Positions 15,013 to 32,900 of a stretch of DNA of 35,989 nucleotides are shown piece by piece; position 1 is the stretch's first letter; each line of letters opens with the position of its first letter. The position numbers were made by a program, and so were the translations under genes. The notes under the pieces are model-generated. The model was not told the origin of the DNA, searched no databases, and saw nothing but the letters and a program-made list of their open reading frames with translations. This DNA is from Gammaproteobacteria bacterium (GTDB lineage Bacteria; Pseudomonadota; Gammaproteobacteria; Steroidobacterales; Steroidobacteraceae). The stretch covers positions 1-35,989 of the forward strand of contig JANYIY010000460.1 of NCBI GenBank assembly GCA_025358615.1, given 5' to 3'.

Positions 15013-15048
15013 GCCAACAAACGGGTATTGAAGACACGTGGAGATAGC

Positions 15049-17241
15049 ATGAAGATCGGATTCGACCGCCGGCAATTCCTCGCCGGCAGCACGGGCGCCT
15101 TGTCGCTGACACTGCTGCCGCACGCCTTGTTTGCCACTCCCGTCCCCGCGGCCTCCGCCACCGCGGTCTCCCCGGGCAGCGCCGCGACACCGCCCGTGGC
15201 GCGCATCGACGTCGTACGCGACACCTACTTCGGCGAAACATTGAGCGACCCCTACCGCTGGATGGAGAACGACAAGGACCCCGAGTGGCTGCCGTTCCTG
15301 AAAGGTCAGAACGAGCACACCCGCGCCGTGCTCGATAAGCTCCCGACGCGCACTTCGCTGCTCAAGCGCATACAGCAGCTATCAGGCGACACCGTGGCCA
15401 CCAGCCACGTGCAACGCGCCGGCGGCCTGCTCTTCTTCACCCAGCGACCCAAGGGCGCGGACAATTTCAAGCTGTTCGTACGCCAGGGCGAACACGGTCC
15501 CAACCGCGTACTGGTCGACCCCACTCTCGTCAGCGGCGTCGCAGGCCATGTCTCGCTCGACTGGTGGCGCGCCGCGCCCGACGGCCGGCATGTGGTCTAC
15601 GGTCTGTCGAAGAACGGCAGCGAGGACTCCATGCTGCATATTCTCACCGTCGCCGACGGCGGACTGTTGACCGAGCAGATACCCAACACCCAGGATGCCA
15701 ATCCGCAGTGGCTCGATGACAGCAGCGGCTTCTTCTACAACCAGCTGACCGGCGCAGTCGACACGCCGCAACGATTTCTCGACAGCCAGGCACGCTTCCA
15801 CCGCCTGGGGTCGGACCCGAGCTCCGATCCCGTGCTCATGAAGCGCGGGCTGGTCGCCGGCATCGAGTACGAGAAGATCCAATCACCGAACATTCTCATC
15901 TACCACGGTGCCCGTCACGCCATCCTGCTGCTCAGCGATGTGCGCCCCGAAACGCGTGCCTACATCGCGCCGCTCGCCGACGTCATTGCCGGACGCGCGC
16001 AGTGGACTGCCGTCGCCGCTTTCGAGGACGAGATCACCGACATCGATCTGCATGGCGAAGACCTCTACCTGCTGGTCAACAAGGGCACGCCTCGCGGCCG
16101 TCTGATCAAGACCTCCGCCGCCGCCCCGAATCTCGCAACGGCCGCCGTAGTGATTCCGCAAGGACCCTTTGTTCTCGAAGGAACCGCGCGCGCCCGCGAC
16201 GGCCTGTACCTGCAGATCATGGATGGCGGCATCAGCCGCCTGCAGCGCCTCGCGACTGACGGCAAAGTCACCGACATAGCGCTGCCCTTCGACGGCACCA
16301 TCGGCTCGGTGTACACCGTCAGCAACGAGGATGGCGCCCTGCTTTCCATGACCGGCTGGCTGACTCCCGCAGGCATCTACTCGGTTGACCCCGCCGGCCG
16401 CATGCAAGACACCGGCGTCACCCCCAAGCCCGCCATCGACGTCAGCGCCTACGAAGCCAAGCGCTTCTTCGCCGCCGCCAAGGACGGCACGAAAATCCCG
16501 TACACACTGATTTACCGCAAGGGCTTAAAACTCAATGGCAGTACGCCCACCTGGATTTCCGCGTACGGATCGTACGGCTACCCTTACACGCCCGCCTTCG
16601 CCGGGCGAACCTTGGCGTTCGTCGACGCCGGCGGCATCGTCGGCTACGCCAATGTGCGCGGCGGCGGAGAATACGGCCGCGAATGGCATAAAGCCGGACA
16701 GCTCACCAGCAAACCGAACACCTGGCGCGATCTAATCGCGGTGTGCGAGGAGTTGTGCGCCAAGAAATACACCTCGCCGCAGCATCTGGCCATCGGCGGG
16801 CGCTCGGCGGGAGGCATCACCGTCGGTCGCGCGTTGACCGAACGGCCCGATCTGTTCGCCGCGGTCGTCGACGGCGTCGGCTGGTCGAATCCGCTGCGCT
16901 ACATGGTGGAACAAAACGGCTATGGCGAGGAACCTGAATGGGGCGTCATCACCGAGGCTGCCGGCTATCGCGCACTGAAGAGCATCGACAGTTATCAGGC
17001 CGTAAAGGACGGCACGCCGTATCCCGCGGTGCTGCTCACCACCGGCGTCACCGATCCGCGCGTCGCTCCGTTCCACGTGGCGAAAATGACCGCCCGGCTG
17101 CAGGCCGCCACCAGCTCCGGCAAACCCGTGCTGCTGCGTGTCGACTACGACGCCGGCCATGGCATCGGTTCCACCCGATCTCAACAGGATCGCGAGGCCG
17201 CCGACACGTACGCGTTTCTGCTCTGGCAACTACGCGGATAA
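15049..17241 (+). CDS. Prolyl oligopeptidase family (S9) serine peptidase with Tat-type signal
   Basis: RRQFLAGSTGALSLTLLPHALFA twin-arginine leader; YFGETLSDPYRWMEND; GGRSAGGITVGRAL nucleophile region; DAGHGIGSTRSQQ histidine region. Confidence 0.95.
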   Translation: MKIGFDRRQFLAGSTGALSLTLLPHALFATPVPAASATAVSPGSAATPPVARIDVVRDTYFGETLSDPYRWMENDKDPEWLPFLKGQNEHTRAVLDKLPTRTSLLKRIQQLSGDTVATSHVQRAGGLLFFTQRPKGADNFKLFVRQGEHGPNRVLVDPTLVSGVAGHVSLDWWRAAPDGRHVVYGLSKNGSEDSMLHILTVADGGLLTEQIPNTQDANPQWLDDSSGFFYNQLTGAVDTPQRFLDSQARFHRLGSDPSSDPVLMKRGLVAGIEYEKIQSPNILIYHGARHAILLLSDVRPETRAYIAPLADVIAGRAQWTAVAAFEDEITDIDLHGEDLYLLVNKGTPRGRLIKTSAAAPNLATAAVVIPQGPFVLEGTARARDGLYLQIMDGGISRLQRLATDGKVTDIALPFDGTIGSVYTVSNEDGALLSMTGWLTPAGIYSVDPAGRMQDTGVTPKPAIDVSAYEAKRFFAAAKDGTKIPYTLIYRKGLKLNGSTPTWISAYGSYGYPYTPAFAGRTLAFVDAGGIVGYANVRGGGEYGREWHKAGQLTSKPNTWRDLIAVCEELCAKKYTSPQHLAIGGRSAGGITVGRALTERPDLFAAVVDGVGWSNPLRYMVEQNGYGEEPEWGVITEAAGYRALKSIDSYQAVKDGTPYPAVLLTTGVTDPRVAPFHVAKMTARLQAATSSGKPVLLRVDYDAGHGIGSTRSQQDREAADTYAFLLWQLRG

Positions 17242-17275: not shown

Positions 17276-18655
17276 CTAGCGCGCGCCTAGGTAAATCACA
17301 CCTTCTTTCATCACCAGCACCGGGTGCTCAGTGGCGTGCATGTCGCTCAAGGGATTGCCGGCCACCGCCACGATGTCCGCATACTTGCCGACCGTCAGCG
17401 TTCCGGTCTGATCCGAGATCCCCAATAAGTCGGCGCCGTTTGCCGTACCCGCCATCAGCACCTGGGCCGGCGCCAGACCGTTCTTCGCCATCAGTGCGAA
17501 CTCGCGCGCGTTCAAGCCATGCGGCTCCACCCCGGCATCCGTGCCCATGGCCATCGGCACGCCGATCTTCACCGCATGCTGGAACATCTGCTGGCTTTGC
17601 GCCGCAGCGGCGCGCGCCTTGACGGCGATCGCCGGCGGGAAAGTGTCGAGGTGCTCACCCACCCAGGCACCCGCGAACAGGGTGGCCACCAAGTACACAT
17701 GCTTCTTCTTCATTTCAAGCAGCGTGTCATCCTGCAGGAAGCTGCCGTGCTCAATCGAATCCACTCCGGCAGCAATAGCCATCTTGGCGGCTCGATCCCC
17801 ATGACAGTGCGCGGCGACCTTGCGGTTCCAGGCATGTGCTTCCGACACGATGGCGTTCATCTCTTCTTGTGTCAGCTGCACATTGTCTACGGGATCCGAC
17901 AGCGACAGCACCCCGCCCGAGGGCATGAACTTGATGACGTCCGCGCCAAACTTGATCTGCAGGCGCACGGCGGCACGGCACTCGTCAGCGCCGTTGCACA
18001 CGCCCTGCAGAGGTCCCGCCAACGTAATGCGCTGCGGTGGCACCGGATCCTGATCGGCATGTCCGCCGCTCGCTCCAACCGCATAGTTGGACACCAACAT
18101 ACGCGGGCCCGGAACCTCTCCTGCGTTGATGGCATTGCGCATGCTGAGCGCAATGTAGTCGGTGGACCCTAAGTCGCGCACCGTGGTGATTCCTGCCTCG
18201 AGTGTGGCCTTGGCGTAGTGCGCGCCATACAGCGCCTGCTCGGCGGGGAAGCGCATGACACCGTCGAACCAATCGTGGTACCAGTTCGGGCTGCCCTGCT
18301 GCGATAAGTGCACATGCGCGTCGATGAAGCCCGGCAACAGCGTCGCGTCCCCAAGATCGATGACCCGTGCGTTGTCGGGAATCTTCACGTCGCTGCCCAC
18401 TGCCAGGATCTTGCTGCCCGACACCAGCACCACGCCCTGCTCCAGCATTTTGCCGGACACCGAATCGAACAAGTGTGCGGCTTTCAGCGCGATCGGGCGA
18501 GACGCGTTAGCAGCGGCATCCGCCAGAATGGGCTGCGCCAAACACTGCGCGGCAATCACCGCCGCTGCCAATACCCAGGAACTCATCTTCGTACGCCGTG
18601 TCATAATTCGCATCCCCTTCGATGTGGACGCGCAGAATAACTCAGCAGGCATCAC
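17276..18655 (-). CDS. Amidohydrolase family protein (imidazolonepropionase/prolidase-like), exported
   Basis: ATLLPGFIDAHVHLSQQG, TTVRDLGSTDY, AAHCHGDRAAKMAIAAGVDSIEHG and MGTDAGVEPHG motifs. Start uncertain. Confidence 0.93.
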   Translation of the reverse strand: MMPAELFCASTSKGMRIMTRRTKMSSWVLAAAVIAAQCLAQPILADAAANASRPIALKAAHLFDSVSGKMLEQGVVLVSGSKILAVGSDVKIPDNARVIDLGDATLLPGFIDAHVHLSQQGSPNWYHDWFDGVMRFPAEQALYGAHYAKATLEAGITTVRDLGSTDYIALSMRNAINAGEVPGPRMLVSNYAVGASGGHADQDPVPPQRITLAGPLQGVCNGADECRAAVRLQIKFGADVIKFMPSGGVLSLSDPVDNVQLTQEEMNAIVSEAHAWNRKVAAHCHGDRAAKMAIAAGVDSIEHGSFLQDDTLLEMKKKHVYLVATLFAGAWVGEHLDTFPPAIAVKARAAAAQSQQMFQHAVKIGVPMAMGTDAGVEPHGLNAREFALMAKNGLAPAQVLMAGTANGADLLGISDQTGTLTVGKYADIVAVAGNPLSDMHATEHPVLVMKEGVIYLGAR

Positions 18656-18673
18656 CTCTGCTATCGAACCCGG

Positions 18674-20089
18674 CTATCGAACCCGATCTAATTCCGCCCG
18701 GTAGACGACGCCGCCCTTCATCACGAAGCCAACATGTTCGGTGACCTTGATGTCGCTGAGCGGATTGCCGGGCACGGCGACCAGATCCGCCAGCTTGCCG
18801 GCCTCGACCGTTCCGATGCGGTCCTGCCAATGAATGATTTCCGAATTGATACGCGTCGCCGACACCAGCGACGCCATTGGCTTCTCGCCCAATGCCACGC
18901 GCGTGCGAAACTCGCGTGCGTTGAGTCCGTGGGGAATGACGGGTGCGTCGGTCGCCAAGCCAATGGGCAGGCCGGCCGCCAAGGCGCGTCGGAACGCGCT
19001 TTCGGCCATGCTGCGAAGCTGTCGCATGCGCTCCATTTCCGCGGGCGGGATCACTGTCGCACGATTTTCATCGAGGTTCGCCGCCAGTAGCGCCAGCGTC
19101 GGCACGTAGTAAGTGTTGGGGTGCGACTTCAAGAGCGCGATCGCTTCATCATCGAGACCCGAACCATGGTCGATGGTGTGCACGCCGGCACGGATCGCCG
19201 CCTTGATACCCTCGGTACCATGCGCGTGCGCGGCCACATCGCGGCCCCAACGATTGGCTTCAACCACCGCGGCGCGAATTTCCTCGTCCGAATACTGCTG
19301 CGCGCCCGGCGGTATGCCCTTGGAGAGCACCGCCCCCGTCGTCAGGATCTTGATGAAGTCCGCGCCATTCTTGAAATTGGTGCGTACCGCCTTGGTGATT
19401 TCTTCCGGACCGTCGGCGAGATTTTGCACCAGAGGGACATGCACGTAGGGCGAGAACTGCAACGCATCGCCGGCCCCGCCGGTCGACGACACGTAGGCGC
19501 CCGCCACCAGCATGCGCGGCCCAGGCACGGCTCCCGCATCGATTGCATTGCGTAGCGCCACATCGGTATACGGCCAGTCAGGTCCCATGTCGCGTACCGT
19601 CGTAAAACCAGCCATCAAAGTCACCAGCGCCCAATGGGCTCCCCACAGCGCATCCTCGGCCGGAGTGGTCTTGACCAAGGCGTCTTCCCAATGAACATCG
19701 CTGCGTCCCGTGAGATGGGTATGCAAATCGATGAAGCCCGGTAGCAGTGTCGAGTCTCCGAGATTGATCTGGCGCGCACCAGGAGGCACGGGCAAGGACG
19801 AGCCGACCGCCGTGATCCGATCGCCCACCACTCGAACCATGGCCGGAGCCAATGGTTCCCCGCCTCGACCGTCGATGAGACGCGCCGCGCGAATAATAAT
19901 GACGGCGGACCTCTCCTGCGCCGAACTGGGCCCGGCCGCAGCAGTGACCGTCGCTGCCACTACAGCCAGGAGAATCATGAAAATCTTCGCGAGCGGCACT
20001 GCGAGATGTCCCACAGGGGCAGGCAAGCGACGCGGCACGCGAAACAAGGTAGATAAATACATGATGATCCTTTGGTAACTCCCTGGCAC
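18674..20089 (-). CDS. Amidohydrolase family protein, tandem paralog of the neighbouring gene
   Basis: STLLPGFIDLHTHLTGRSD, TTVRDMGPDWPY, AAHAHGTEGIKAAIRAGVHTIDHGSG and LATDAPVIPHGLNAREF. Start may be at MILLAVVAATVTAAAG (about 19978). Confidence 0.93.
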   Translation of the reverse strand: MPGSYQRIIMYLSTLFRVPRRLPAPVGHLAVPLAKIFMILLAVVAATVTAAAGPSSAQERSAVIIIRAARLIDGRGGEPLAPAMVRVVGDRITAVGSSLPVPPGARQINLGDSTLLPGFIDLHTHLTGRSDVHWEDALVKTTPAEDALWGAHWALVTLMAGFTTVRDMGPDWPYTDVALRNAIDAGAVPGPRMLVAGAYVSSTGGAGDALQFSPYVHVPLVQNLADGPEEITKAVRTNFKNGADFIKILTTGAVLSKGIPPGAQQYSDEEIRAAVVEANRWGRDVAAHAHGTEGIKAAIRAGVHTIDHGSGLDDEAIALLKSHPNTYYVPTLALLAANLDENRATVIPPAEMERMRQLRSMAESAFRRALAAGLPIGLATDAPVIPHGLNAREFRTRVALGEKPMASLVSATRINSEIIHWQDRIGTVEAGKLADLVAVPGNPLSDIKVTEHVGFVMKGGVVYRAELDRVR

Positions 20090-20889: not shown

Positions 20890-23070
20890 TCAGAACTGAT
20901 ATTGGAATCGGGCTCGAACCGTGCGCGGCACACCCGAATGCACCACATAGTCAGCCACCGGCGATGGCTCATTCTTCAATCGCGACACATAGTAATATTC
21001 GATGTCGTTCCACCTCACATCGGCGACGTTAAAGATATCGATTGCAGCCAACCACTTCGATGCACGAAATCCGATTTGAGCATCCACAGTCGTATAGGCC
21101 GGCGACTTCGCGCTGTTGTCCTCCACCAGCGGTGACTCGCCGAAATGGCGTGCGCGCACTGCGCCAAACCAACCGGACTCGCGTTGTGCGGTCAACCCCG
21201 CGTCGAGCACGTTGGTGGGGCTGTTGGGAATATAGCGCCCGACGATCCCTATGTCCTCCGCGCAAGGGTGGCTCAGCGCAGCATCGCCGCAGCCTAAGTC
21301 ATCCCGATCCGCGTTATGGTCGAAGCGTGCGCGCGTAAAAGCGGCGTTCAGATCCGCTGAGAGCCAACTATTGATGTGATACGTGTTGCCCAATTCGATG
21401 CCGGTCCGAGTGGTCGCGCCATTCGGTTGGGTAACTCCGGCATCACCGGAGAAAACCAACTCGGATTTCAACTTCAATTTGAACACGTCCACGCGGGCTT
21501 GCCATTTCGGCACGATACCGCTCGCCAAGCCGACCTCCGCGCTGCTGGCTCGGGTCAATGGGGATACAGCTCCCACATTGGGGTTCTCGCCGCTACGCGT
21601 AATGCCGCGCGCATCGTTACTGTGGAAGCCGCTCCCGGCATTTACGAATACCGTGGTCTTCGCCCAGGGGCCGAGCGTGAGTCCGAATTTGGGACTCAAG
21701 ATCGAGGCACGCTTGTTGCCGGTGTTGCAGCCCAGCGGATCACTATTGATGTTGCAGCTGCCGTCCGGATTCAGCAACTTGTCCTTGACGTCAAAGTTGA
21801 ATTGATCTTCGCGCAATCCAACTACGGTTTGCACATCATCGCGCCAACGCACCGTGTTTTCAACATAAGCGGCGCCGCTTGACTCCAAGACGCCCGCGTT
21901 TTGCGTGCGCATGGCAGCGGGTGCCGCGCTGATGGTTTGTCGTTGAAAGCTGGGAAACAGCCCGACATCGCGAATGTCGTCGATTCTCGCCTGCGCGCCT
22001 ATCACGTTAGTCACGGGGAAGCCCACGATGCTCGTAAACCATGTCTGCGATGCTTTGAACCCATAGACGATTCGATCATCGTGCTGCAGCATTTGATCGC
22101 CTTCGATCGGATTCTTGAGAAAGTAGGTAAAGGTCGACCACAGATCGAGCTTGTACCTGATGACATACGCCGATATTTGCACCTGATCCGTGTCGCAACG
22201 CTTCACGCGACTGAACGACAGGCTGGAGCGGGTGGAAACGCCGCCGTCCGTCGGGTTTAAGCTGCCGAATCGGTCGATGATTCCGTCGGCGATGGCGTGT
22301 TGCGGCACCTGGTCGGTGGAGTTCCACTTGCCTGAGTAGGCCATCGCAGTGAAGGTAAAGTAATCGCGATCATCGCCGCGAAAATATCGAATGACACCAT
22401 TCAGGCGGTTATAGTCATCCGGCACGTCGAAGGGTCCATCGTTGTGATACACCTCCCCGGCGACGATTATTGTGCCGCCGAGAAAACTGGTCGAGCCCAT
22501 CAACAGGCCGCGCCGATATCCATCCTCGCCGAAGCCTAGGGTCGCACTGGTGGACACCGCGTTGACCAGTCCAACCCGCGCAGTGCCGGCGGTCGCAAAA
22601 TCACCTTCATCCGCGTAGTAAGGGCCTTTTTTGTAGTGCAGATCACCGGCGAGCTCGGGGATCACGAAATTGAAGTCGGCATAGCCCTGGCCATGCGCGT
22701 GGCTCGGCATGTTGACCGGCATGTCGTCGACCTCGAGCGCAAGATCCGTGCCGTGATCCAGGTTAAATGCCCGCAGGAAGTACTGGTTCGCTTTGCCCTC
22801 CCCCGAGTGTTGCGTCACGATGAGACCGGGGATGTTTTCCAGGATCGCGGCAGGGCGCAGCAGGGGTTCGCCGGCTATTTGCGCCTGGCTGATATCGCCG
22901 GCGGAGGCGGCGGTCATATTGCTGACACCCGTCGCGACCACCGTAATGGTGTCGAGCGCCGGCGGCGCAACATCCGCCGTTTCGGTCGCTTGGACCGAAA
23001 GCGCCGCCAGAATTAGCGCCGCCGCCGTTCCGAATCTCACAAAGCCGTGGCGCGCAAATGCATAACTCAT
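20890..23070 (-). CDS. TonB-dependent receptor
   Basis: Signal peptide; plug-domain text (ILENIPGLIVTQHSGEGKANQYFLRAFNLDHGTDLALEVDDMPVNMPSHAHGQGYADFNFVIPEL); C-terminal beta-barrel ending in RARFQYQF with terminal Phe. Confidence 0.95.
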   Translation of the reverse strand: MSYAFARHGFVRFGTAAALILAALSVQATETADVAPPALDTITVVATGVSNMTAASAGDISQAQIAGEPLLRPAAILENIPGLIVTQHSGEGKANQYFLRAFNLDHGTDLALEVDDMPVNMPSHAHGQGYADFNFVIPELAGDLHYKKGPYYADEGDFATAGTARVGLVNAVSTSATLGFGEDGYRRGLLMGSTSFLGGTIIVAGEVYHNDGPFDVPDDYNRLNGVIRYFRGDDRDYFTFTAMAYSGKWNSTDQVPQHAIADGIIDRFGSLNPTDGGVSTRSSLSFSRVKRCDTDQVQISAYVIRYKLDLWSTFTYFLKNPIEGDQMLQHDDRIVYGFKASQTWFTSIVGFPVTNVIGAQARIDDIRDVGLFPSFQRQTISAAPAAMRTQNAGVLESSGAAYVENTVRWRDDVQTVVGLREDQFNFDVKDKLLNPDGSCNINSDPLGCNTGNKRASILSPKFGLTLGPWAKTTVFVNAGSGFHSNDARGITRSGENPNVGAVSPLTRASSAEVGLASGIVPKWQARVDVFKLKLKSELVFSGDAGVTQPNGATTRTGIELGNTYHINSWLSADLNAAFTRARFDHNADRDDLGCGDAALSHPCAEDIGIVGRYIPNSPTNVLDAGLTAQRESGWFGAVRARHFGESPLVEDNSAKSPAYTTVDAQIGFRASKWLAAIDIFNVADVRWNDIEYYYVSRLKNEPSPVADYVVHSGVPRTVRARFQYQF

Positions 23071-23316
23071 ACATCCCCGGCAGCTTTGCTGATCCCTAGA
23101 AATAGTCTATTCGCGAGGCGTCGGCAAACAGATGCGCAATGTGGGAAGTTTCAGCCATGCATTTCGGATTGCAATTTCTTCAATGTCGAACCTTAGAGGC
23201 CCGCGTGCCGCGCACTGAGCCGCGTCGCTACAAATAATTATTCTTGTCCTGCATCCATCGGTCCCGCCGCAGCGAAATGAACTTGACCACAGCATCACAC
23301 TCGGGAGTTTGGCCCT

Positions 23317-24861
23317 ATGAATCGACAATCACAATGGTTGGCAGCCGCCGTTAGCGCGACTCTGCTACCTCTCACCGCGCTGGCCTCCAGCCATCGCGAA
23401 GCACCATTTATCACTACTCGCTCGAAGGTCGACGGCACCGACCTGTATCTATTTAACAGCTACGAGACCGGCCGCGCCGGCTACGTCACGATGATTGCAA
23501 GCTATCAGCCGTTCGAGAATCCGCAGGGCGGACCGAACTACTACACGATGGATCCGAGCGCGCTCTATGAGATCTCTATCGACAACACGGGTTCCGGCAA
23601 AGAAGCGCTGACATTTCAATTCCGCTTTACGACCGTGTCCAACGGATTAGCGGTGATGGCCGGTGCCAAGTCCATCCCGGTTCCGCTGGTGAATATCGGA
23701 CCGGTCAGCGCCGGCAGCACTGCATCGCAAAATGTGGCGGAGCACTACACGCTGACGCTGGTCAAAGGCGATCGTCGTACCGGGGCAGCGCAGGCTATGA
23801 CCGATGCCACCGATGGCAGCGCCACTTTCAGCAAGCCGCTCGACAACATCGGCGCGAAGTCCATCGCCGACTATCCGACTTACGCCGCGAGCTTCATCCA
23901 TACGATCGTCATCCCGGGCTGCAGCATGCCGGGCCGCGTCTTTGTCGGTCAGCGGCAAGACGGCTTCGTCGTGAACTTGGGTGAAACGTTTGACCTCGTC
24001 AATATCAAATATCCCGTCACTGAGTTGGCCCCTGCCGGCACCAACGCACGACAACTCGCGCCCAACTCATTGGCTGGCTACAACGTCACCTCGATTGCAT
24101 TGGAAGTCCCGGCTGCCTGCCTCACCGCCGGCACCGATCCGGTCATCGGCGCGTGGACCACGGCCAGTCTCCGTCAAGCATCCGTACTCAATTCCCAACC
24201 GCAAAGCGACAAGAGTGTCGGCAGCGTTGGTGCCACCGCCTCCCCCACCGGAACAGCAATCCAAGGCGGCGCCTGGACCCAGGTCTCGCGCCTAGGGATG
24301 CCGCTCGTCAATGAGCTCGTCATCGGCCTTCCCGATAAGGATCGCTTCAACGCGTCATCGCCGTCCGGCGATGCGCAGTTTGCAGACTACGTGACCAATC
24401 CCTCGCTTCCCGTGTTGTTGCAGACGTTGTTCGGCGGCGCGGGAGTGCTGGCTCCGAATGTCTATCCGCGAACCGATCTCGTCGCAGCATTTCTGACCGG
24501 TATCAAAGGCGTGAACCAGCCCAAGGCGGTCACCGCTGCCGAAGAATTGCGCCTGAATACCAGCACTGCGGTCACACCGATTGCCACCCAAAATGATTTG
24601 GGCGTCCTCGGCGGAGATCTGTCTGGATTCCCGAATGGTCGTCGCCCCATCGACGATGTCGTCGACATCGAGTTGCGGGTGGCCATGGGCGTACTGCTGT
24701 CGCCCTTCGACAAGAGTGCCGCTGATCCGGATCCGGCGTCGGATGCGTCACGGCAGTTGCACTACACCGATGGCGTAGAGCCCAATCCGGCGAACTATCT
24801 GCCCGCGTTTCCCTACTTGAATACACCGCTCGGCGGCTCACCCACCAGCGCAAACGACTAA
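23317..24861 (+). CDS. DUF4331 domain-containing protein
   Basis: Signal peptide then ASSHREAPFITTRSKVDGTDLYLFNSYETGR...YVTMIASYQPFENPQGGPNYYTMDPSALYEISIDNTG. Confidence 0.93.
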   Translation: MNRQSQWLAAAVSATLLPLTALASSHREAPFITTRSKVDGTDLYLFNSYETGRAGYVTMIASYQPFENPQGGPNYYTMDPSALYEISIDNTGSGKEALTFQFRFTTVSNGLAVMAGAKSIPVPLVNIGPVSAGSTASQNVAEHYTLTLVKGDRRTGAAQAMTDATDGSATFSKPLDNIGAKSIADYPTYAASFIHTIVIPGCSMPGRVFVGQRQDGFVVNLGETFDLVNIKYPVTELAPAGTNARQLAPNSLAGYNVTSIALEVPAACLTAGTDPVIGAWTTASLRQASVLNSQPQSDKSVGSVGATASPTGTAIQGGAWTQVSRLGMPLVNELVIGLPDKDRFNASSPSGDAQFADYVTNPSLPVLLQTLFGGAGVLAPNVYPRTDLVAAFLTGIKGVNQPKAVTAAEELRLNTSTAVTPIATQNDLGVLGGDLSGFPNGRRPIDDVVDIELRVAMGVLLSPFDKSAADPDPASDASRQLHYTDGVEPNPANYLPAFPYLNTPLGGSPTSAND

Positions 24862-24870
24862 GGGGTTACG

Positions 24871-25119
24871 ATGAATCATAAATTACTCCTGTTTAGCGCG
24901 CTGGGACTGACTGCAGTGTTGGTCGCTGCCTGTCATGGCCACGACCACGCGGCGAGCGCGGCCCCGCCGCCGCCGACATCGTTAGCTCTCAGCACGGCCG
25001 ATGTACTGGCGCTAGCCCAGCATACCTCCGAGAGCGACGCACCGTTCGCGGTCAACGGCGGCAAGGTGACGCTGAACGACACCAGCGAAACCAGCGCTCC
25101 CATTCCTGTCAGTAACTAG
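24871..25119 (+). CDS. Small predicted lipoprotein with N-terminal HGHDH motif
   Basis: MNHKLLLFSALGLTAVLVAACHGHDHAASAAPPPP: lipobox-like VAAC with a His-rich segment directly after the Cys. Confidence 0.75.
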   Translation: MNHKLLLFSALGLTAVLVAACHGHDHAASAAPPPPTSLALSTADVLALAQHTSESDAPFAVNGGKVTLNDTSETSAPIPVSN

Positions 25120-26306
25120 TGCGTTTGAGGGAACACATCAGCTCGGTGTTCCCAGGCCGGCGCCGAATTCGGCGCCGGCCCTTTTTTACGGCGCTGCTTT
25201 TCGCCTTGCACGTCTCCACAGCCTGCGCCACGCCATACATCCCCGCGCGCGACGCCCAAGTGTTGGCGGAGCTTCCTGCCGGCGCGCGACACGCCGGCGC
25301 CCCCTCGCGGCAGCTGACCGCCAACCGCCTGGACATCGCCCTGCCGCTCGCGCAGTTTTATATTTCCCGGGCGAGGGCCACCGGTGACCTGCGCTTCTTG
25401 GGCTACGCCGAAGCGGTTCTTGCGCCATGGATGAGTCAGCCTGCGGTTGTCCCCCAAGTTTTGGTACTGCACGCCACCATCCTGCAAAGCCGGCATTCCT
25501 TCGATGCCTCACTGATAGAACTCGACCGGGCGCTCAAAATGCGTCCCGACGATGCGCAAAGTTGGCTTACTCGAGCGACCGTTTTGCGGGTACTCGGGCG
25601 TTACGCAGAAGCCCTGACCTCCTGCGAGCATCTCGCGGTTGCCGCCGATCCGGCGATTGCGACCCTGTGCAGGCAAAGCGTGCTCGGTTTGATGGGCCAG
25701 CTAACTAGCGCATACGCGGCAATCGCCGCCCTGTCACCGAAAGAAATGCCGCCCGAGGCCCGCGCCTGGCGCTATTCGGAACTCGGAGAAATGGCCGAGC
25801 GACTGGCCGACGACGCAGCCGCCGAACACTGGTTGCGCGAGGGCCTGGCGCTGGCGCCTCAGGATTTCTACATGCGCTTGGCATATGCCGATCTCTTGCT
25901 GCGCCAGCAACGCGCTGCCGAGGCATTGCAGTTACTGGCCGGCTACGAATCCATGGAACCCATGCTGCTTCGCGTCGCCATCGCGCATCGGCAGTTGCAG
26001 GACGGTGCGAGCGTACAGGCCGAAGCGCTGTTGTCCAGCGCCTTCGATGTCGAACAGCGGCGCAGCGACGTCGTGCATCGCCGAGAACAAGCGCGATTCC
26101 TGCTCGATGTCGATCAGCAGCCGGCGGCGGCGCTGGCGGCGGCCGAGGAGAACTGGAAAGTACAACGCGAACCCGACGATATATTGATCCTGCTGCGCTC
26201 GGCGCAGGCCGCCCACCAGGCGCCGGCAGCCGCACCCGCTCTGCAATTTCTGCAAACGACCGGCCTCGAGGACTCGCGATTAGCGCCGTACCGGGACGCG
26301 ACATGA
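25119..26306 (+). CDS. Tetratricopeptide-repeat protein, exported
   Basis: Signal-like RRRPFFTALLFALHVSTACA; repeated helical pairs of TPR type (LIELDRALKMRPDDAQSWLTRATVLRVLGRYAEALTSCEHL). Start is GTG 25119 or GTG 25146. Confidence 0.8.
   Translation: MRLREHISSVFPGRRRIRRRPFFTALLFALHVSTACATPYIPARDAQVLAELPAGARHAGAPSRQLTANRLDIALPLAQFYISRARATGDLRFLGYAEAVLAPWMSQPAVVPQVLVLHATILQSRHSFDASLIELDRALKMRPDDAQSWLTRATVLRVLGRYAEALTSCEHLAVAADPAIATLCRQSVLGLMGQLTSAYAAIAALSPKEMPPEARAWRYSELGEMAERLADDAAAEHWLREGLALAPQDFYMRLAYADLLLRQQRAAEALQLLAGYESMEPMLLRVAIAHRQLQDGASVQAEALLSSAFDVEQRRSDVVHRREQARFLLDVDQQPAAALAAAEENWKVQREPDDILILLRSAQAAHQAPAAAPALQFLQTTGLEDSRLAPYRDAT
25129..25153 (+). promoter_or_regulatory. Stem-loop 1 upstream of and abutting a terminator-like hairpin
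   Basis: GGGAACAC-ATCAGCTCG-GTGTTCCC, perfect 8-bp stem. Confidence 0.7.
25155..25187 (+). terminator. Rho-independent terminator-like hairpin with T6 tract, inside the predicted TPR ORF
   Basis: GGCCGGCGCC-GAATTC-GGCGCCGGCC, a perfect 26-bp palindrome, then C-TTTTTT. Confidence 0.8.
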
Positions 26307-27436
26307 ACGTCCCACGTTGCATCGTCGCCGCCCTCATGAGCTGTTCATTCAGCGCCGCGGCGCACGCCCATATCGCCAGCAGCGGCTTCCTGGTCGCGAA
26401 CGTCGCCGGCGCAGACGTCACCGGCTCCATCGAAATTGCGGTGCTCGACGTTGAACTGGCCGTTGGGGTGGATGCGAACCGCGACAACCAGATCACCTGG
26501 CGCGAGCTGAGCGACGGCGCGCCGCAGTTGGCGCGCTATTTGTCGGAACATCTCGCGTTCACCGCCCAGGACGGTGGTCTTGGCGTTGCTTGTCGGCTGT
26601 CCTTCCAGGCCATGCAAGTAAATGATCGGGTGGACGGCAGCTATGCTTGGTTGCCGTTTACGGCACAGTGCCCGCTGGCGGTTCGCGATCTGGGGATCGA
26701 CTATAGCGTCATGGCCGGCCTCGACCCGTCACATCGCGGCCTGCTCACACTGACCGCGGGCCGCGTCGTGCAGACCGCCGTGCTCGGCGGCGCGGCAGAA
26801 CACGCCACCTTTTCGGTCTTTGCACCGTCTCGCTGGCGCGCCTTTGTTGACTACTTCCACGCCGGCATCTGGCATATCTGGAGCGGCATCGACCACCTGC
26901 TGTTCCTTCTGTCCTTGCTGCTGCCCGCCGTGCTGTTGCGCAATGGTGGTCGCTGGGAGCCTGTTCCCGAGGCGCGCCCCGCGCTGATCAGTATCTTTAA
27001 AGTGGTGACAGCCTTTACTCTGGCGCACTCGCTAACGCTGACTTTGGCCGCGTTGGATATCGTTCGCCTGCCGAGCCGGCTCACCGAATCTATCATCGCC
27101 GCCTCCATCATCGTGGCAGCGCTCAACAATATATTTCCGCTGGTCACCGAGAGCCGCGCGCGCATCGCCTTTGCATTCGGCCTGTTGCACGGATTCGGTT
27201 TCGCGTCCGTACTCGCCGACATGGGGCTGCCGCACGGCGCCCGTCTGATCTCTCTGCTGGCATTCAACGTCGGAATCGAGACCGGTCAAATGGCTGTGGT
27301 ACTCGCCGTCATGCCCATCATCTATGCGCTGCGCGCGGGCGCCTTCTATCGGCGCGCCGTCATGCCGTGGGGTTCGGCGGCGATCGCCGCGCTGGCTCTC
27401 GTCTGGTTGGTGCAGCGCGCGGTATTGCCGGGCTGA
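26303..27436 (+). CDS. HupE/UreJ family membrane protein with periplasmic N-terminal domain
   Basis: GIWHIWSGIDHLLFLLSLLLP, FTLAHSLTLTLAAL and FGLLHGFGFASVLADMGLP are HupE/UreJ_2 His-containing helices. ATGA overlap with the TPR gene. Confidence 0.92.
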   Translation: MNVPRCIVAALMSCSFSAAAHAHIASSGFLVANVAGADVTGSIEIAVLDVELAVGVDANRDNQITWRELSDGAPQLARYLSEHLAFTAQDGGLGVACRLSFQAMQVNDRVDGSYAWLPFTAQCPLAVRDLGIDYSVMAGLDPSHRGLLTLTAGRVVQTAVLGGAAEHATFSVFAPSRWRAFVDYFHAGIWHIWSGIDHLLFLLSLLLPAVLLRNGGRWEPVPEARPALISIFKVVTAFTLAHSLTLTLAALDIVRLPSRLTESIIAASIIVAALNNIFPLVTESRARIAFAFGLLHGFGFASVLADMGLPHGARLISLLAFNVGIETGQMAVVLAVMPIIYALRAGAFYRRAVMPWGSAAIAALALVWLVQRAVLPG

Positions 27437-27462: not shown

Positions 27463-29010
27463 CTAGCTGCGTCGGCGCAGGCCGGCTGGAATCAATACGA
27501 CGCCGAGCAATTCAAAAATCCCATGCGCCACCAATGCCATGAGTGCCGCCGGGATGGCCCCCGTCAATATGGTGTGCACATCGTTCAAGGCAAGGCCCGA
27601 CACAATGGGCGCGCCGTAGCCCCCCGCCCCCACCAAAGCGGCCAGAGTGGCGGTACCGATGCTGACGATGGTCGCCGTCTTGATGCCCGCGAGTAACGTC
27701 GGACTCGCCAGCGGCAGCACCACTCGAAACAGCACCTGCCGCCGGTTCAAGCCAAATGCCCGTGCATTTTCCAGATGGATCGGATTCACCGCGCGAATGC
27801 CGGTGAAGGTGTTGAGCACCACCGGCAGCAAGCTGTACAAGCAAAGCGCTGCCAGCGCAGGCTTCGTGCCCACTCCAAACACCGGAATGAGAAAGCACAG
27901 CAGCGCCAGCGACGGCACCGTCTGAATTATCGCGCTCGACAGCAGGATCGCCTGCCCGGTGGCGTGAAAACGTACGGCCGCGATCCCCAAGGGGATCCCC
28001 ACCAGCACCGAAAACAGCAGCGACACACCGACCAGCCACAGATGCTCCCGCGTACGCCGCCCCACTTCCTGCCACCAGCCCTCCGAATTGCGCGCCTCCG
28101 AGCCGAGAAATTGCGCCGCGATCTTGTTGAAGGGGATCTTCTGAATGTCGGCCTGCGCATTCATGTCGAGCATGGCCGTTTCGCTGATGCGCCCTTCCAA
28201 TGCCAACAGTGCCTGCCACTCGCGCGGATGCTCTGCGACAAAGGACTTGCTCGCCACCCACACCGCCTGATACACCGGAAAATAATTGTGGTCATCCTTG
28301 AGCAGACGCAGGTGCAGTTTCTTGATCTTCGCGTCCGTCGAGTACACATCGATCAAATCAACCGCGTTCTGATCGATGGCCTGGAAGCTCAAGGAATGCT
28401 CCATGCGGCTAACTTTCTGCGTATCGAAGGCCAGATGATAATTGTTCACCAAGCCCGGATAGCCATCCTTGCGATCCATGAACTCGTAGCTGAACGCCGC
28501 CCTGACTCCGGACTGAATGGGAATCAAGTCGCCGATGGTATGCAGCTGATGCTGCTCGGCAAAGCTCTCTTTCACCGCCAGCGCATAGGTGTCGTTGAAG
28601 CCCAGCGACCCGGAGATCGTCAGATCCAGTGCGCCCAACGCCGCGCGAATCTCGTCCAGCGACTTCAAGTCCGGCTTCTTGAGAATGGCCTCCGCCAGCG
28701 TCCCCGTGTAATCCGAATACACATCAATGGCGCCGCTCTTCAGCGCCTCGAATAGAATTCCCGTGCTGCCCATGCCGAGCTTGCGGGTCACCGGGACGGT
28801 CGACGACGCCTCGACGGTCTGCGCCGCAATCTCTCCCAGCACGTAGGCTTCGGTGAATATCTTGCCGCCGATCACGATGCTATCCCCGGCCGGCGCCGCG
28901 CCGGGCAGCAGCACCGTCAGCATGATTGTCACCGCACACGCCCCCGAATTGGCCCTTACCGAGGCCATCCCCTTCATCATCCTGCTCATGGCACGCAAGG
29001 CGCGCTTCAT
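27463..29010 (-). CDS. Osmoprotectant-type ABC transporter, substrate-binding domain fused to permease domain
   Basis: N-terminal IVIGGKIFTEAYVLGEIAAQTVE...DVYSDYTGTLAEAIL (glycine betaine/choline-type SBP), then LWLVGVSLLFSVLVGIPLGIAAVR...ALCLYSLLPVVLNTFTGIRAV permease. Confidence 0.93.
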   Translation of the reverse strand: MKRALRAMSRMMKGMASVRANSGACAVTIMLTVLLPGAAPAGDSIVIGGKIFTEAYVLGEIAAQTVEASSTVPVTRKLGMGSTGILFEALKSGAIDVYSDYTGTLAEAILKKPDLKSLDEIRAALGALDLTISGSLGFNDTYALAVKESFAEQHQLHTIGDLIPIQSGVRAAFSYEFMDRKDGYPGLVNNYHLAFDTQKVSRMEHSLSFQAIDQNAVDLIDVYSTDAKIKKLHLRLLKDDHNYFPVYQAVWVASKSFVAEHPREWQALLALEGRISETAMLDMNAQADIQKIPFNKIAAQFLGSEARNSEGWWQEVGRRTREHLWLVGVSLLFSVLVGIPLGIAAVRFHATGQAILLSSAIIQTVPSLALLCFLIPVFGVGTKPALAALCLYSLLPVVLNTFTGIRAVNPIHLENARAFGLNRRQVLFRVVLPLASPTLLAGIKTATIVSIGTATLAALVGAGGYGAPIVSGLALNDVHTILTGAIPAALMALVAHGIFELLGVVLIPAGLRRRS

Positions 29011-29753
29011 CGCACGTCACCCGCATCCGGAAGCGTTCGCTGCGCATTGATGAACTGCGTTACGAAGGGACTGGCAGGCCGCAGCAGTAAATCTCCGTAG
29101 GCTCCCGTCTGCACCATCCTCCCCTCGTGCAACATGGTGATTTGTTCCGCCAGAAACACGGCCTCGCCCAGATCGTGCGTAACCAACAGCACCGTCTTGT
29201 TCAGCCGTTGGAAAATGGATTTCAACTCCTGCTGCAGGCTGCTGCGAATCAGCGGATCCAACGCGGCCATTGGCTCATCCAGCAACATCACCGCCGGATC
29301 CATCATGGCGGCGCGCATGATGGCCACGCGCTGCTTCTGGCCGCCGCTCATTTCGCGCGGAAAGCGCCCAAGAATCTCCGCGTCCAAGTCCACTATCTTA
29401 CGCAGCTCTTCCACGCGCTCATCGATTTTCGATTTCCCCCATCCGCGCAGCTTGGCGATCAAGGCCACGTTATTCCTTGCCGTGATATGCGGGAACAGTC
29501 CGCCGTCCTGCGGTACATAACCGATCCGGTCCGCCCATTCCACCGGCGTGAACGACAACAGCGCATGGCCATTGATCTTGACGTAGCCTTTGTCGAAGGG
29601 GATGAGGCCGAGCGTAATGCGCAGCAGCGTGGTCTTTCCCGAACCGCTCGAACCGATCAAGGCATGCGTGGCGCCCTTCGGCACCATCAGGTTCACGTCG
29701 ACGAGAACCGCCCTGTCCTCGAAGGTTTTGTAGATGTTCTGCAATTCCAGCAT
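29007..29753 (-). CDS. ABC transporter ATP-binding protein (osmoprotectant/glycine betaine type)
   Basis: Walker A GSSGSGKTT; signature MSGGQKQRVAIMRA; Walker B VMLLDEP; H-loop VTHDLGEA. Overlaps the permease fusion gene. Start MLELQNIYKTF. Confidence 0.95.
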   Translation of the reverse strand: MLELQNIYKTFEDRAVLVDVNLMVPKGATHALIGSSGSGKTTLLRITLGLIPFDKGYVKINGHALLSFTPVEWADRIGYVPQDGGLFPHITARNNVALIAKLRGWGKSKIDERVEELRKIVDLDAEILGRFPREMSGGQKQRVAIMRAAMMDPAVMLLDEPMAALDPLIRSSLQQELKSIFQRLNKTVLLVTHDLGEAVFLAEQITMLHEGRMVQTGAYGDLLLRPASPFVTQFINAQRTLPDAGDVR

Positions 29754-29891
29754 GACGATTCCTGATCGGCGCCCGCAACCTAGCGGTTTCAGTTGAACTG
29801 CTAGCGTAACCCGGCTATACGATTGAGTCGCGCTCATTGCATGCGCGCAGGAAGTATTGTAAATCTGACAATCGCACGATAGGGGAAACGC

Positions 29892-30680: not shown

Positions 30681-32900
30681 ATGTCGAGTGAAAGGAATCA
30701 CCGCGTCGTTGGTTCGCGAACCAAGCGCATCACCGCCGGCGCCATCGCCCGCGCCGCGCTCGCCGGCATCCTGACAACCGCCGCTGCGGCCGCGCCGGCG
30801 GCCGGCGACCCGGGCGCGCCCGCCACCGCGCAACGCCCCGTCACCGATACCTACCACGGTGTGCGCGTCTCCGATGCGTATCGCTGGCTGGAAGACTCCT
30901 CGAGTCAGGAGGTCCGCGACTGGAGCGCGGCGCAGAATAAGCGCACTCGCGGCTACCTCGACTCCCTGCCGCAACGCCGGCCCATCTATAACCAACTGCT
31001 GCGCCAGATTTCCGCCACCTCGAGTTCCTACTACCGCCTGTACGCCGTCGGCGCACAGGTGTTCGCTTTCTACAGCGAGCCACCCAAGCAGCAGCCCATG
31101 ATCGGCCTGCTCACCAACGCAGCGGATCCTGCGCTCACCCGCGTCATCGTCGATCCGAACACCATCAATCCCAGGGGCACTACGGCCATCGATTGGTTCG
31201 TGCCCTCGCCGGACGGCAAGCTCGTCGCCGCGTCGCTATCGGACAACGGCAGCGAAGATGGCGCTCTGCATTTATTCGACGTGGCGACCGGCAAGGAGAT
31301 CGTGCCGCCAATTTTGCGTGTGCAGTACCCGACCGGCGGGGGCAGTCTTGCCTGGCGCGCCGACAGCAAGGGCTTTTGGTACACGAGCTATCCCGGACCC
31401 GACCGGCCCGCCTACGAGCAGCACTTCTTTCAACAGGTGTACTTCCACCGGTTGGGCGACGCTGTAGAAAAAGATGTCTATGTCATGGGCAAGGGCCTGC
31501 CCAAGGTCGCCGAAATCGCCTTGGAGAATCGATTCAATGCCAAATTCGTGGTGGCATCCGTCGCGAATGGCGACGGCGGCGAATTCGCGCACTACCTCAT
31601 CGACCCCAACGGCACCGTCCGGCAAATCACAAAATTTCAGGACCAGATTGTCGCCGCTACCGCGGGCCCGGACGGCGCGCTGTACTTGATATCGCGCAAC
31701 AACGCACCGCACGGCAAGCTGCTTAAGCTCGCTCCCGGGGTCGTGGATCTAAGCCAGGCCAGCCAGCTGGTCGCGGAGTCCGACGCCGTCATGCTGAGCG
31801 CCGGTCAGGCGGGCGGCGACCCCATCGCGCTGACGGCGAAGGCCATCTACGTGCGGGAACTCGTCGGCGGTCCATCTCGCGTCGCCGTTTATGATCACGC
31901 CGGCAAACCTCGCGGCATGCTGCCGCTGCCCGACTTGGCATCGGTCGAGGAGGTCGAGCCCTTGAGCGATGGCACACTTCTGTATTCCATCGAGACTTAT
32001 CTGCGGCCGCCTTATTTCTCCCGCTACGACGAATCCGTCCTGCGCAGCTCCGACACCAAGCTGGTGCAGACCAGTCCCGTGTCCTTCGCCGACGCCGAAG
32101 TGGTACGGGAAATCGTCACCTCCAAGGACGGCACGTCGATCCCGATCAATATCGTTCGCCGTACCAGCGCCAAGCTCTCCGGCGCCAACCCGGTGCTGTT
32201 GAACGGCTACGGCGGCTACGCCATCAGCCTCACTCCGCAATTTCTCGGCGCCTCCACCCGGCTGTGGCTCGACGGCGGCGGCATCTACGTCATCGCCAAC
32301 CTGCGCGGCGGTGGCGAGTTCGGCGAGGCTTGGCACCAGCAAGGCGCGCTCACACACAAGCAAAATGTATTTGATGATTTCATCGCGGCGGCCGAATACC
32401 TGATTGCCCATCACTATACAAACCGCGACCATCTCGCCATCATCGGCGGCAGCAACGGCGGTTTGCTCATGGGCGCCGCCTTCACTCAGCATCCCGAATT
32501 GTTTCGTGCCGTCGTCTCACGAGTCGGCATCTACGACATGCTGCGCGTCGAGCGCGATCCGAACGGCCTGTTCAACACCACCGAATTCGGCTCCGTCAAA
32601 GACCCCGAGCTATTTAAGGCTCTGTACGCCTATTCCCCCTACCACCACGTGACCGATGGCACTGCCTATCCGGCCATTTTCATGGCCACCGGCGAAACCG
32701 ACGGCCGCGTCAATCCCGCGCACTCCCGTAAAATGATCGCGCGGCTGCAGGCGGCAACGAACTTGGGAAGGCCCATTTATCTCAGCATCAACTCGCACGC
32801 CGGCCACGGCATCGGCAGTTCGCTATCCATCCGCGTCAATCAATCCGCCGACACTTACAGCTTTCTGTTCGATCAGCTCGGCATGCATCTCGCGCAGTGA
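30681..32900 (+). CDS. Prolyl oligopeptidase family (S9) serine peptidase
   Basis: DTYHGVRVSDAYRWLEDSSSQEVRDWSAAQN; GGSNGGLLMGAAF; ATGETDGRVNPAHSRKMIARLQ; HAGHGIGSS. Confidence 0.95.
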   Translation: MSSERNHRVVGSRTKRITAGAIARAALAGILTTAAAAAPAAGDPGAPATAQRPVTDTYHGVRVSDAYRWLEDSSSQEVRDWSAAQNKRTRGYLDSLPQRRPIYNQLLRQISATSSSYYRLYAVGAQVFAFYSEPPKQQPMIGLLTNAADPALTRVIVDPNTINPRGTTAIDWFVPSPDGKLVAASLSDNGSEDGALHLFDVATGKEIVPPILRVQYPTGGGSLAWRADSKGFWYTSYPGPDRPAYEQHFFQQVYFHRLGDAVEKDVYVMGKGLPKVAEIALENRFNAKFVVASVANGDGGEFAHYLIDPNGTVRQITKFQDQIVAATAGPDGALYLISRNNAPHGKLLKLAPGVVDLSQASQLVAESDAVMLSAGQAGGDPIALTAKAIYVRELVGGPSRVAVYDHAGKPRGMLPLPDLASVEEVEPLSDGTLLYSIETYLRPPYFSRYDESVLRSSDTKLVQTSPVSFADAEVVREIVTSKDGTSIPINIVRRTSAKLSGANPVLLNGYGGYAISLTPQFLGASTRLWLDGGGIYVIANLRGGGEFGEAWHQQGALTHKQNVFDDFIAAAEYLIAHHYTNRDHLAIIGGSNGGLLMGAAFTQHPELFRAVVSRVGIYDMLRVERDPNGLFNTTEFGSVKDPELFKALYAYSPYHHVTDGTAYPAIFMATGETDGRVNPAHSRKMIARLQAATNLGRPIYLSINSHAGHGIGSSLSIRVNQSADTYSFLFDQLGMHLAQ

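Follow-up and report, generated by a model that had tools for sequence, protein, structure and literature searches.

What does a protein of the DUF4331 family do when its gene opens an operon that faces away from a TonB-dependent receptor? The question is raised by a 35,989-nucleotide stretch of DNA from a gammaproteobacterium of the Steroidobacteraceae (contig JANYIY010000460.1 of GenBank assembly GCA_025358615.1), hereafter the window. Here the receptor gene is divergent from genes for DUF4331, a small lipoprotein, a tetratricopeptide repeat (TPR) protein and a HupE_UreJ_2 permease. This layout had been described in an earlier sequence-only reading, and the open reading frames, strands and coordinates of all five genes agree with it, as do the Pfam domains of all but the lipoprotein, which has no family match. 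The locus is interpreted here as an envelope module for metal capture and uptake under the control of an extracytoplasmic function (ECF) sigma factor, most likely for nickel or copper and possibly for cobalt, an interpretation to which we give a little better than an even chance. It starts from features read in sequences and models, namely the gene set, a shared promoter, invariant N-terminal residues, an Ang-1-like predicted fold and a receptor related to NikR-linked ones. The identity of the metal, the direction of transport, the export of DUF4331, the roles of the lipoprotein and the TPR protein, and the inducing signal are what we infer.

DUF4331 is distributed patchily (19 genomes out of 196 in the order, 22 out of 398 in a sample of the phylum), and the family is large, at least 536 relatives having been matched in genome contigs. 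Around canonical DUF4331 matches, the gene order DUF4331-lipoprotein-TPR-HupE recurs in many Pseudomonadota. In genome samples that were not picked for their neighbours, a TPR gene accompanied 25 of 32 canonical DUF4331 loci and HupE_UreJ_2 accompanied 22. The window genome, a 3.78 Mb metagenome-assembled genome (MAG; 82% complete, 492 contigs), contains a single copy of DUF4331 and has HupE_UreJ_2 at two places. With two such places per genome, chance alone would put one within 5 kb of about 0.5% of genes, and the association with DUF4331 is thus far above chance. Eighty named loci (from Duganella, Massilia, Acinetobacter, Marinobacter, Alcanivorax and others) were compared together with the window, and counts in these 81 loci are lower bounds owing to contig ends. 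The TPR gene was present in 64 of them, HupE in 60, and a small lipoprotein gene followed DUF4331 in about 67. A sigma factor, an anti-sigma factor and a receptor are the recurrent extra partners; the next-ranked neighbour clusters are lineage-specific.

ECF sigma genes were found in 44 of the 81 loci, RskA anti-sigma genes in 36 and ChrR-like cupin anti-sigma genes in four, the anti-sigma domains being RskA_C (PF10099) or the ChrR cupin (PF12973). An unbiased spaced-dyad search upstream of DUF4331, in loci also having RskA, returned GCATC-N17-CGTA in 15 of 35 loci (at most 4 in shuffles), and the same dyad stands upstream of 13 of 36 sigma genes. Sites of the resulting consensus, TGMATCC-N16-CGTA, precede DUF4331 and the sigma gene and also TonB receptors encoded outside the operon. 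A weight matrix was built from the DUF4331 and sigma-gene sites, with the receptors left unused. With a cut-off score of >=13, a site preceded 52/80 of the DUF4331 genes, 14/44 of the sigma genes and 7/21 of the receptor genes; the corresponding values were 0/198 for inner operon and anti-sigma genes taken together and 3/476 for controls. Many of the receptors lacking a site are downstream members of an operon. Moreover, two of four receptors located away from the cassette in cassette genomes have a promoter of >=21 bits (L186, 21.8; L189, 22.1). Because receptor and cassette carry the same ECF promoter, they form, as judged from these sites, one regulon in relatives of the window bacterium. 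The promoter of DUF4331 in the window scores 15.5, its -10 element being one base off the consensus, and is one of nine exact TGMATCC-N16-CGWA matches in the genome (two for the reversed-pattern control). Other exact matches were not used to draw up a regulon, one (C275) falling within a gene of the other strand and another (C463) 273 bases before a start.

The promoter resembles that of a known system. The M. tuberculosis SigK promoter has a CCATCC -35 and a CGAAT -10 element, and the targets of SigK-RskA are the fasciclins MPT70 and MPT83. SigK-RskA of Mycobacterium tuberculosis shares with the cassette an ECF sigma factor paired with an RskA_C anti-sigma; the regulated genes differ, yet a fasciclin gene adjoins a Streptomyces cassette. 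A SigK-like pattern (-35 RCATCC, -10 CGAA) did not hold in general, as it fitted 1 of 81 loci, and CGTA is the usual -10.

The window receptor forms a clade with the cassette receptor of L025 (66% identity) and the NikR-linked receptors L200 and L201 (SH-aLRT, an approximate likelihood ratio test, 100). NikR adjoins 6 of 16 cassette-free receptor loci (L200, L201, L202, L204, L209, L210), and a canonical HupE adjoins two of the 16. Within the order, the receptor is present in 11/19 genomes with DUF4331 and in 31/177 without it (Fisher p 2.7e-4, uncorrected for kinship). The window receptor therefore stands in the same clade as NikR-linked nickel receptors (compare Helicobacter FrpB4). It differs from them in that no NikR gene is adjacent to it and that cassette receptors are ECF-promoted. 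No STN signalling domain was detected by Pfam on the window receptor, L072 or L116, which showed Plug and barrel with only a sub-threshold DUF481.

Every HupE homologue with a readable start has His as the first residue after the predicted signal peptide (AHA/H in the window, AxA-like/H in homologues), the cleavage being a rule-based prediction. In 39 aligned homologues, H1, D35, E46, H169, D175, H176, H220 and H274 are invariant and D39 is near-invariant; the rows were picked for H1, and the readable-start survey gives the less biased view of this residue. The AlphaFold2 model (predicted local distance difference test, pLDDT, 93) has the Cu-bound Ang-1 domain 9GCE as its top Foldseek match in the PDB (E 6.9e-6, probability 1.00, template modelling score by target 0.57), the similarity covering an Ig-like beta-sandwich periplasmic domain. 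Zn-binding ZrgA and PA4063 are the next matches. Sequence searches for PDB relatives of HupE and DUF4331 gave no credible candidate. According to PMC12537917, Ang-1 binds Cu (dissociation constant 74 nM) and Ni (220 nM) at its N-terminal His and is proposed to feed metal into the HupE/UreJ-2 channel. By analogy, the modelled periplasmic domain of the cassette permease would bind Cu or Ni at His1. The Ang-1-HupE/UreJ-2 anglerases described there share with it a signal peptide followed by His, the same predicted fold and the HupE_UreJ_2 membrane domain. The cassette protein differs from 9GCE by an invariant EF-hand-like loop, and sequence similarity is too low for a profile match. The anglerase neighbours that the paper names are DUF4198, indigoidine-synthase-like and PfkB genes; no mention of DUF4331 was found in the sections consulted. 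Furthermore, an HX5DH-type motif and a conserved membrane-helix His are shared with HupE/UreJ and NicO Ni/Co permeases, from which the cassette permease is distinguished by its extra periplasmic domain and by having no gene link to hydrogenase or urease.

A second candidate metal site concerns DUF4331 itself. The residues SSHRE directly after its predicted signal peptide are invariant in 50 aligned homologues. The -1 residue is Ala in all 75 homologues fitting a motif search, with a small residue at -3 in all. Variants with one Ser keep His in third position (TYA/ASH in Paraburkholderia, TQG/ASH in L151). A free NH2-X-X-His terminus is an amino-terminal Cu(II)- and Ni(II)-binding (ATCUN) site, and the predicted mature terminus NH2-Ser-Ser-His is a possible site of this kind. 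The AlphaFold2 model of DUF4331 has a pLDDT of 85.8 overall and about 51 at the N-terminus. Its fold had no match in the PDB at E<=0.001, and an enzyme role is therefore not claimed. In an Adhaeribacter plasmid, DUF4331 carries a sorting tail of the type IX secretion system. On Rhodobacterales plasmids of Sulfitobacter, Paracoccus, Jannaschia and Marinovum (L218, L225, L227, L228), it lies inside type II secretion clusters with no TPR or HupE gene adjoining; in the last three genera a small annotated gene follows it. The sorting tail and the secretion clusters suggest that DUF4331 may be exported beyond the periplasm in some lineages.

The sequence-only reading had seen the small lipoprotein as a lipid-anchored metal ligand on account of HGHDH next to its lipidated Cys. 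This role was abandoned, as the His-rich stretch is not conserved: in only 5 of 67 lipoproteins is the Cys closely followed by two or more His. The linker after the Cys varies, and what recurs is an acidic S/T-E/D-x-x-EP-like tail, which also ends longer Ig-domain lipoproteins. The operon genes had also been called tightly packed. Indeed, the TPR gene overlaps the lipoprotein stop by one base and the TPR/HupE overlap is ATGA, but an intrinsic terminator separates DUF4331-lipoprotein from TPR-HupE. A hairpin with a T-run at this position is found in 20 of 78 loci, compared with 1.0 in mononucleotide shuffles. More DUF4331 and lipoprotein than TPR protein and HupE would therefore be made.

Operon variants outside the Pseudomonadota occur in Actinomycetota, Bacteroidota and one Phycisphaerales MAG. 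Streptomyces plasmids have DUF4331-TPR followed by an annotated "nickel transporter", which is a NicO protein (PF03824) replacing HupE. A plasmid of Streptomyces anulatus (L221, 519-9459) carries two DUF4331 genes, TPR, NicO, a sortase and the fasciclin gene. On the Adhaeribacter (Bacteroidota) plasmid, DUF4331-TPR faces away from a TonB receptor that has the same plug motif, a layout like that of the window. In the Phycisphaerales MAG (L150), DUF4198, a Ni-binding protein family according to PMC12537917, is located between DUF4331 and HupE. In Acinetobacter, the mature TPR protein begins with a His-rich HPKHHH-like stretch (L110 11803, L113 11786, L125 11739), so that in loci without HupE the TPR protein may have taken over as metal ligand. 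The plus-strand genes are thus conserved together and with metal-related parts, namely the N-terminal-His permease with its Ang-1-like domain, the NicO and DUF4198 variants and the receptor akin to NikR-linked receptors, and the locus survives the refutation test that the earlier reading had set. The earlier proposal of one envelope-spanning metal system is supported in this respect, but the lipoprotein is lost as its ligand and the receptor is not obligatory. The ECF promoter and the sigma/anti-sigma control, the candidate site at the DUF4331 N-terminus, the signs of export past the periplasm and the terminator had not been part of that proposal.

The following mechanism is suggested. The ECF sigma factor, held by the RskA-type membrane anti-sigma, would be freed by an envelope signal and would transcribe DUF4331-lipoprotein-TPR-HupE, and in many species also the receptor, from TGMATCC-N16-CGTA. 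The signal peptide would direct the export of DUF4331, which in some lineages would probably continue to the cell surface or outside; its NH2-Ser-Ser-His terminus would be suited to Cu(II) or Ni(II). Owing to the terminator, more DUF4331 and lipoprotein would be made than TPR protein and HupE, the proportion that a scavenger and its permease should have. Tethering or docking of DUF4331 may be the task of the lipoprotein, the TonB receptor would bring the metal, free or as a chelate, into the periplasm, and the TPR protein may scaffold transfer to the permease. The N-terminal-His domain of the permease would then take the metal and pass it into the membrane channel. Ni is favoured by the NikR-linked receptor kin and NicO, Cu by the in vitro preference of Ang-1; the data do not decide between them.

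Several observations weigh against a metal-uptake module of this kind. A receptor of the same type is adjacent in 21 of 81 loci (about a quarter), and 31 of 42 receptor homologues of the order occur without DUF4331; even with two of four remote copies under the ECF promoter, the receptor is a common rather than a fixed part of the system. The weak promoter candidate of the window receptor lies at the expected distance and is not significant alone. In Acinetobacter loci, a receptor and a further protein stand where HupE would be, with no adjacent HupE. The cleavage of DUF4331 before SSH is a prediction from the -3/-1 rule only, and a cut two residues later would give an N-terminal His. No metal riboswitch was found in the window by an Rfam scan, which gave no match at all. 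The window has no sigma or anti-sigma genes, and the 82%-complete MAG yielded neither the cassette RskA nor the cognate sigma, only paralogous sigmas. A second ECF sigma of the genome, C215, the best sigma homologue, was rejected as the regulator of the cassette and regarded as a paralogue, because its relative in G161 (61%) is separate from that genome's cassette sigma. C215 (L170 1289-1843, minus strand) is accompanied by an RskA_C anti-sigma and preceded just upstream by TGAATCC-N16-CGAA; paralogous RskA-type sigmas may therefore share promoter specificity. Finally, ECF/RskA control together with ChrR-type control suggests envelope or oxidative stress and not simple metal starvation, and lipid-modifying genes occur near the cassette or under its promoter.

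The last points lead to the alternative that survives best, an envelope or oxidative-stress module in which damage is detected by ECF/RskA or ChrR, and the four operon products (DUF4331, lipoprotein, TPR protein and HupE) sequester toxic metal, remove it or shield the envelope instead of taking up a nutrient. It fits the frequency of the sigma and anti-sigma genes given above. In the near relative G106 (L025, 10095-15950), the sigma/RskA pair is followed by a fatty acid desaturase, an amine oxidase, DUF1365 and a cyclopropane synthase. In L028 (11893-14433), a related lipid-gene operon has the same ECF promoter and recalls singlet-oxygen regulons. Both loci favour this alternative, as does the Ni-induced HupE/UreJ of Sphingobium, interpreted as sequestration (PMC5557971). 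The TonB receptor and its NikR-linked kin nevertheless indicate import, lipid genes adjoin the cassette in only two of the loci seen and no efflux pump is conserved with it, so that we regard a stress module as unlikely.

A non-metal module is more doubtful still. HupE_UreJ_2 would then be related only distantly to metal permeases, SSHREAP would be a structural motif of DUF4331, and the complex would serve surface assembly or secretion. This would agree with the ties to type II secretion, the T9SS tail and the sortase, and with the lack of any solved structure found to resemble DUF4331 in sequence or fold. No mention of the DUF4331 name or accessions was found in 5.39 million open papers, most subscription journals being outside the search. 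Four separate metal associations (the Ang-1 fold with His1, NicO, DUF4198 and the NikR-linked receptor kin) speak against a non-metal role. Calcium handling or metallophosphatase support is the least probable reading: the invariant D35 and E46, the near-invariant D39, a weak EF-hand profile similarity and phosphatase genes beside the cassette (Marinobacter plasmid) or near HupE (Deinococcus plasmid) point to it, but phosphatases are not among the recurrent neighbours of the 80 loci, the loop may simply adjoin the His1 site, and transition metals are the better fit to the N-terminal His and to the links with NicO, DUF4198 and NikR.

Within the preferred reading of a metal-capture module, a more specific version can be put forward as a tentative possibility. 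DUF4331 would be a secreted protein metallophore, made in abundance and holding Cu or Ni at its ATCUN N-terminus, docking on the surface lipoprotein and delivering to the TonB receptor and the anglerase permease under an envelope-sensing ECF sigma factor. In the Has/Fec hemophore systems, an ECF sigma/anti-sigma pair, a TonB receptor and a ligand-capturing protein are found together. The cassette also joins the first three with a possibly exported capture protein. In contrast to Has/Fec, no signalling domain was found on its receptor, and the anti-sigma is RskA (or the ChrR cupin) instead of FecR. Similarity between DUF4331 and HasA was not found.

The features of the locus are collected in the table. 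Next to it, the window contains prolyl oligopeptidases on both flanks (15028-17241 and 30681-32900), two tandem amidohydrolases (17276-20089) and a glycine-betaine-type ATP-binding cassette transporter convergent to the cassette (fused OpuAC/permease gene and ATPase, 27463-29837). A library of anti-phage defence systems gave no match in the window.

Table. Position and description of the features of the DUF4331 locus in the window
Feature	Position	Strand	Description
TonB-dependent receptor	20890-23070	-	Pfam Plug and TonB barrel (3e-27), no other domain
Weak candidate ECF promoter of receptor	23110-23136	-	CGCATCT-N16-CGAA; weight-matrix score 1.3 bits
ECF-type promoter of DUF4331 operon	23250-23276	+	TGCATCC-N16-CGAA; about 41 bases 5' of start codon
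DUF4331 protein	23317-24861	+	PF14224, 2.8e-144
Predicted signal peptide of DUF4331	23317-23385	+	predicted mature N-terminus SSHREAP from 23386
Small lipoprotein, 82 aa	24871-25119	+	AAC/HGHDH at lipidation Cys; no Pfam match
Periplasmic TPR protein	25119-26306	+	GTG start, predicted signal peptide; Pfam TPR
Intrinsic terminator	25155-25180	+	11 G-C pairs then CTTTTTT; between lipoprotein gene and TPR gene body
HupE_UreJ_2 permease	26303-27436	+	PF13795, 7.3e-47
Predicted mature N-terminal His of HupE_UreJ_2	26369	+	followed by Ang-1-like periplasmic domain, EF-hand-like loop, membrane domain with HX5DH

The permease type is known, and the DUF4331 module, its regulon and its predicted metal site appear to be new. 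DUF4331, so far an orphan domain, can thereby be placed in a defined regulon, and a promoter, partners and a predicted metal site can be assigned to it. The module can be tested in cultivable bacteria, e.g., Marinobacter, Pseudoalteromonas and Duganella. It bears on the passage of scarce Ni and Cu through the outer membrane and on the partners of anglerase permeases. If DUF4331 does act as a metallophore, the module would be a metal counterpart of the hemophore systems.

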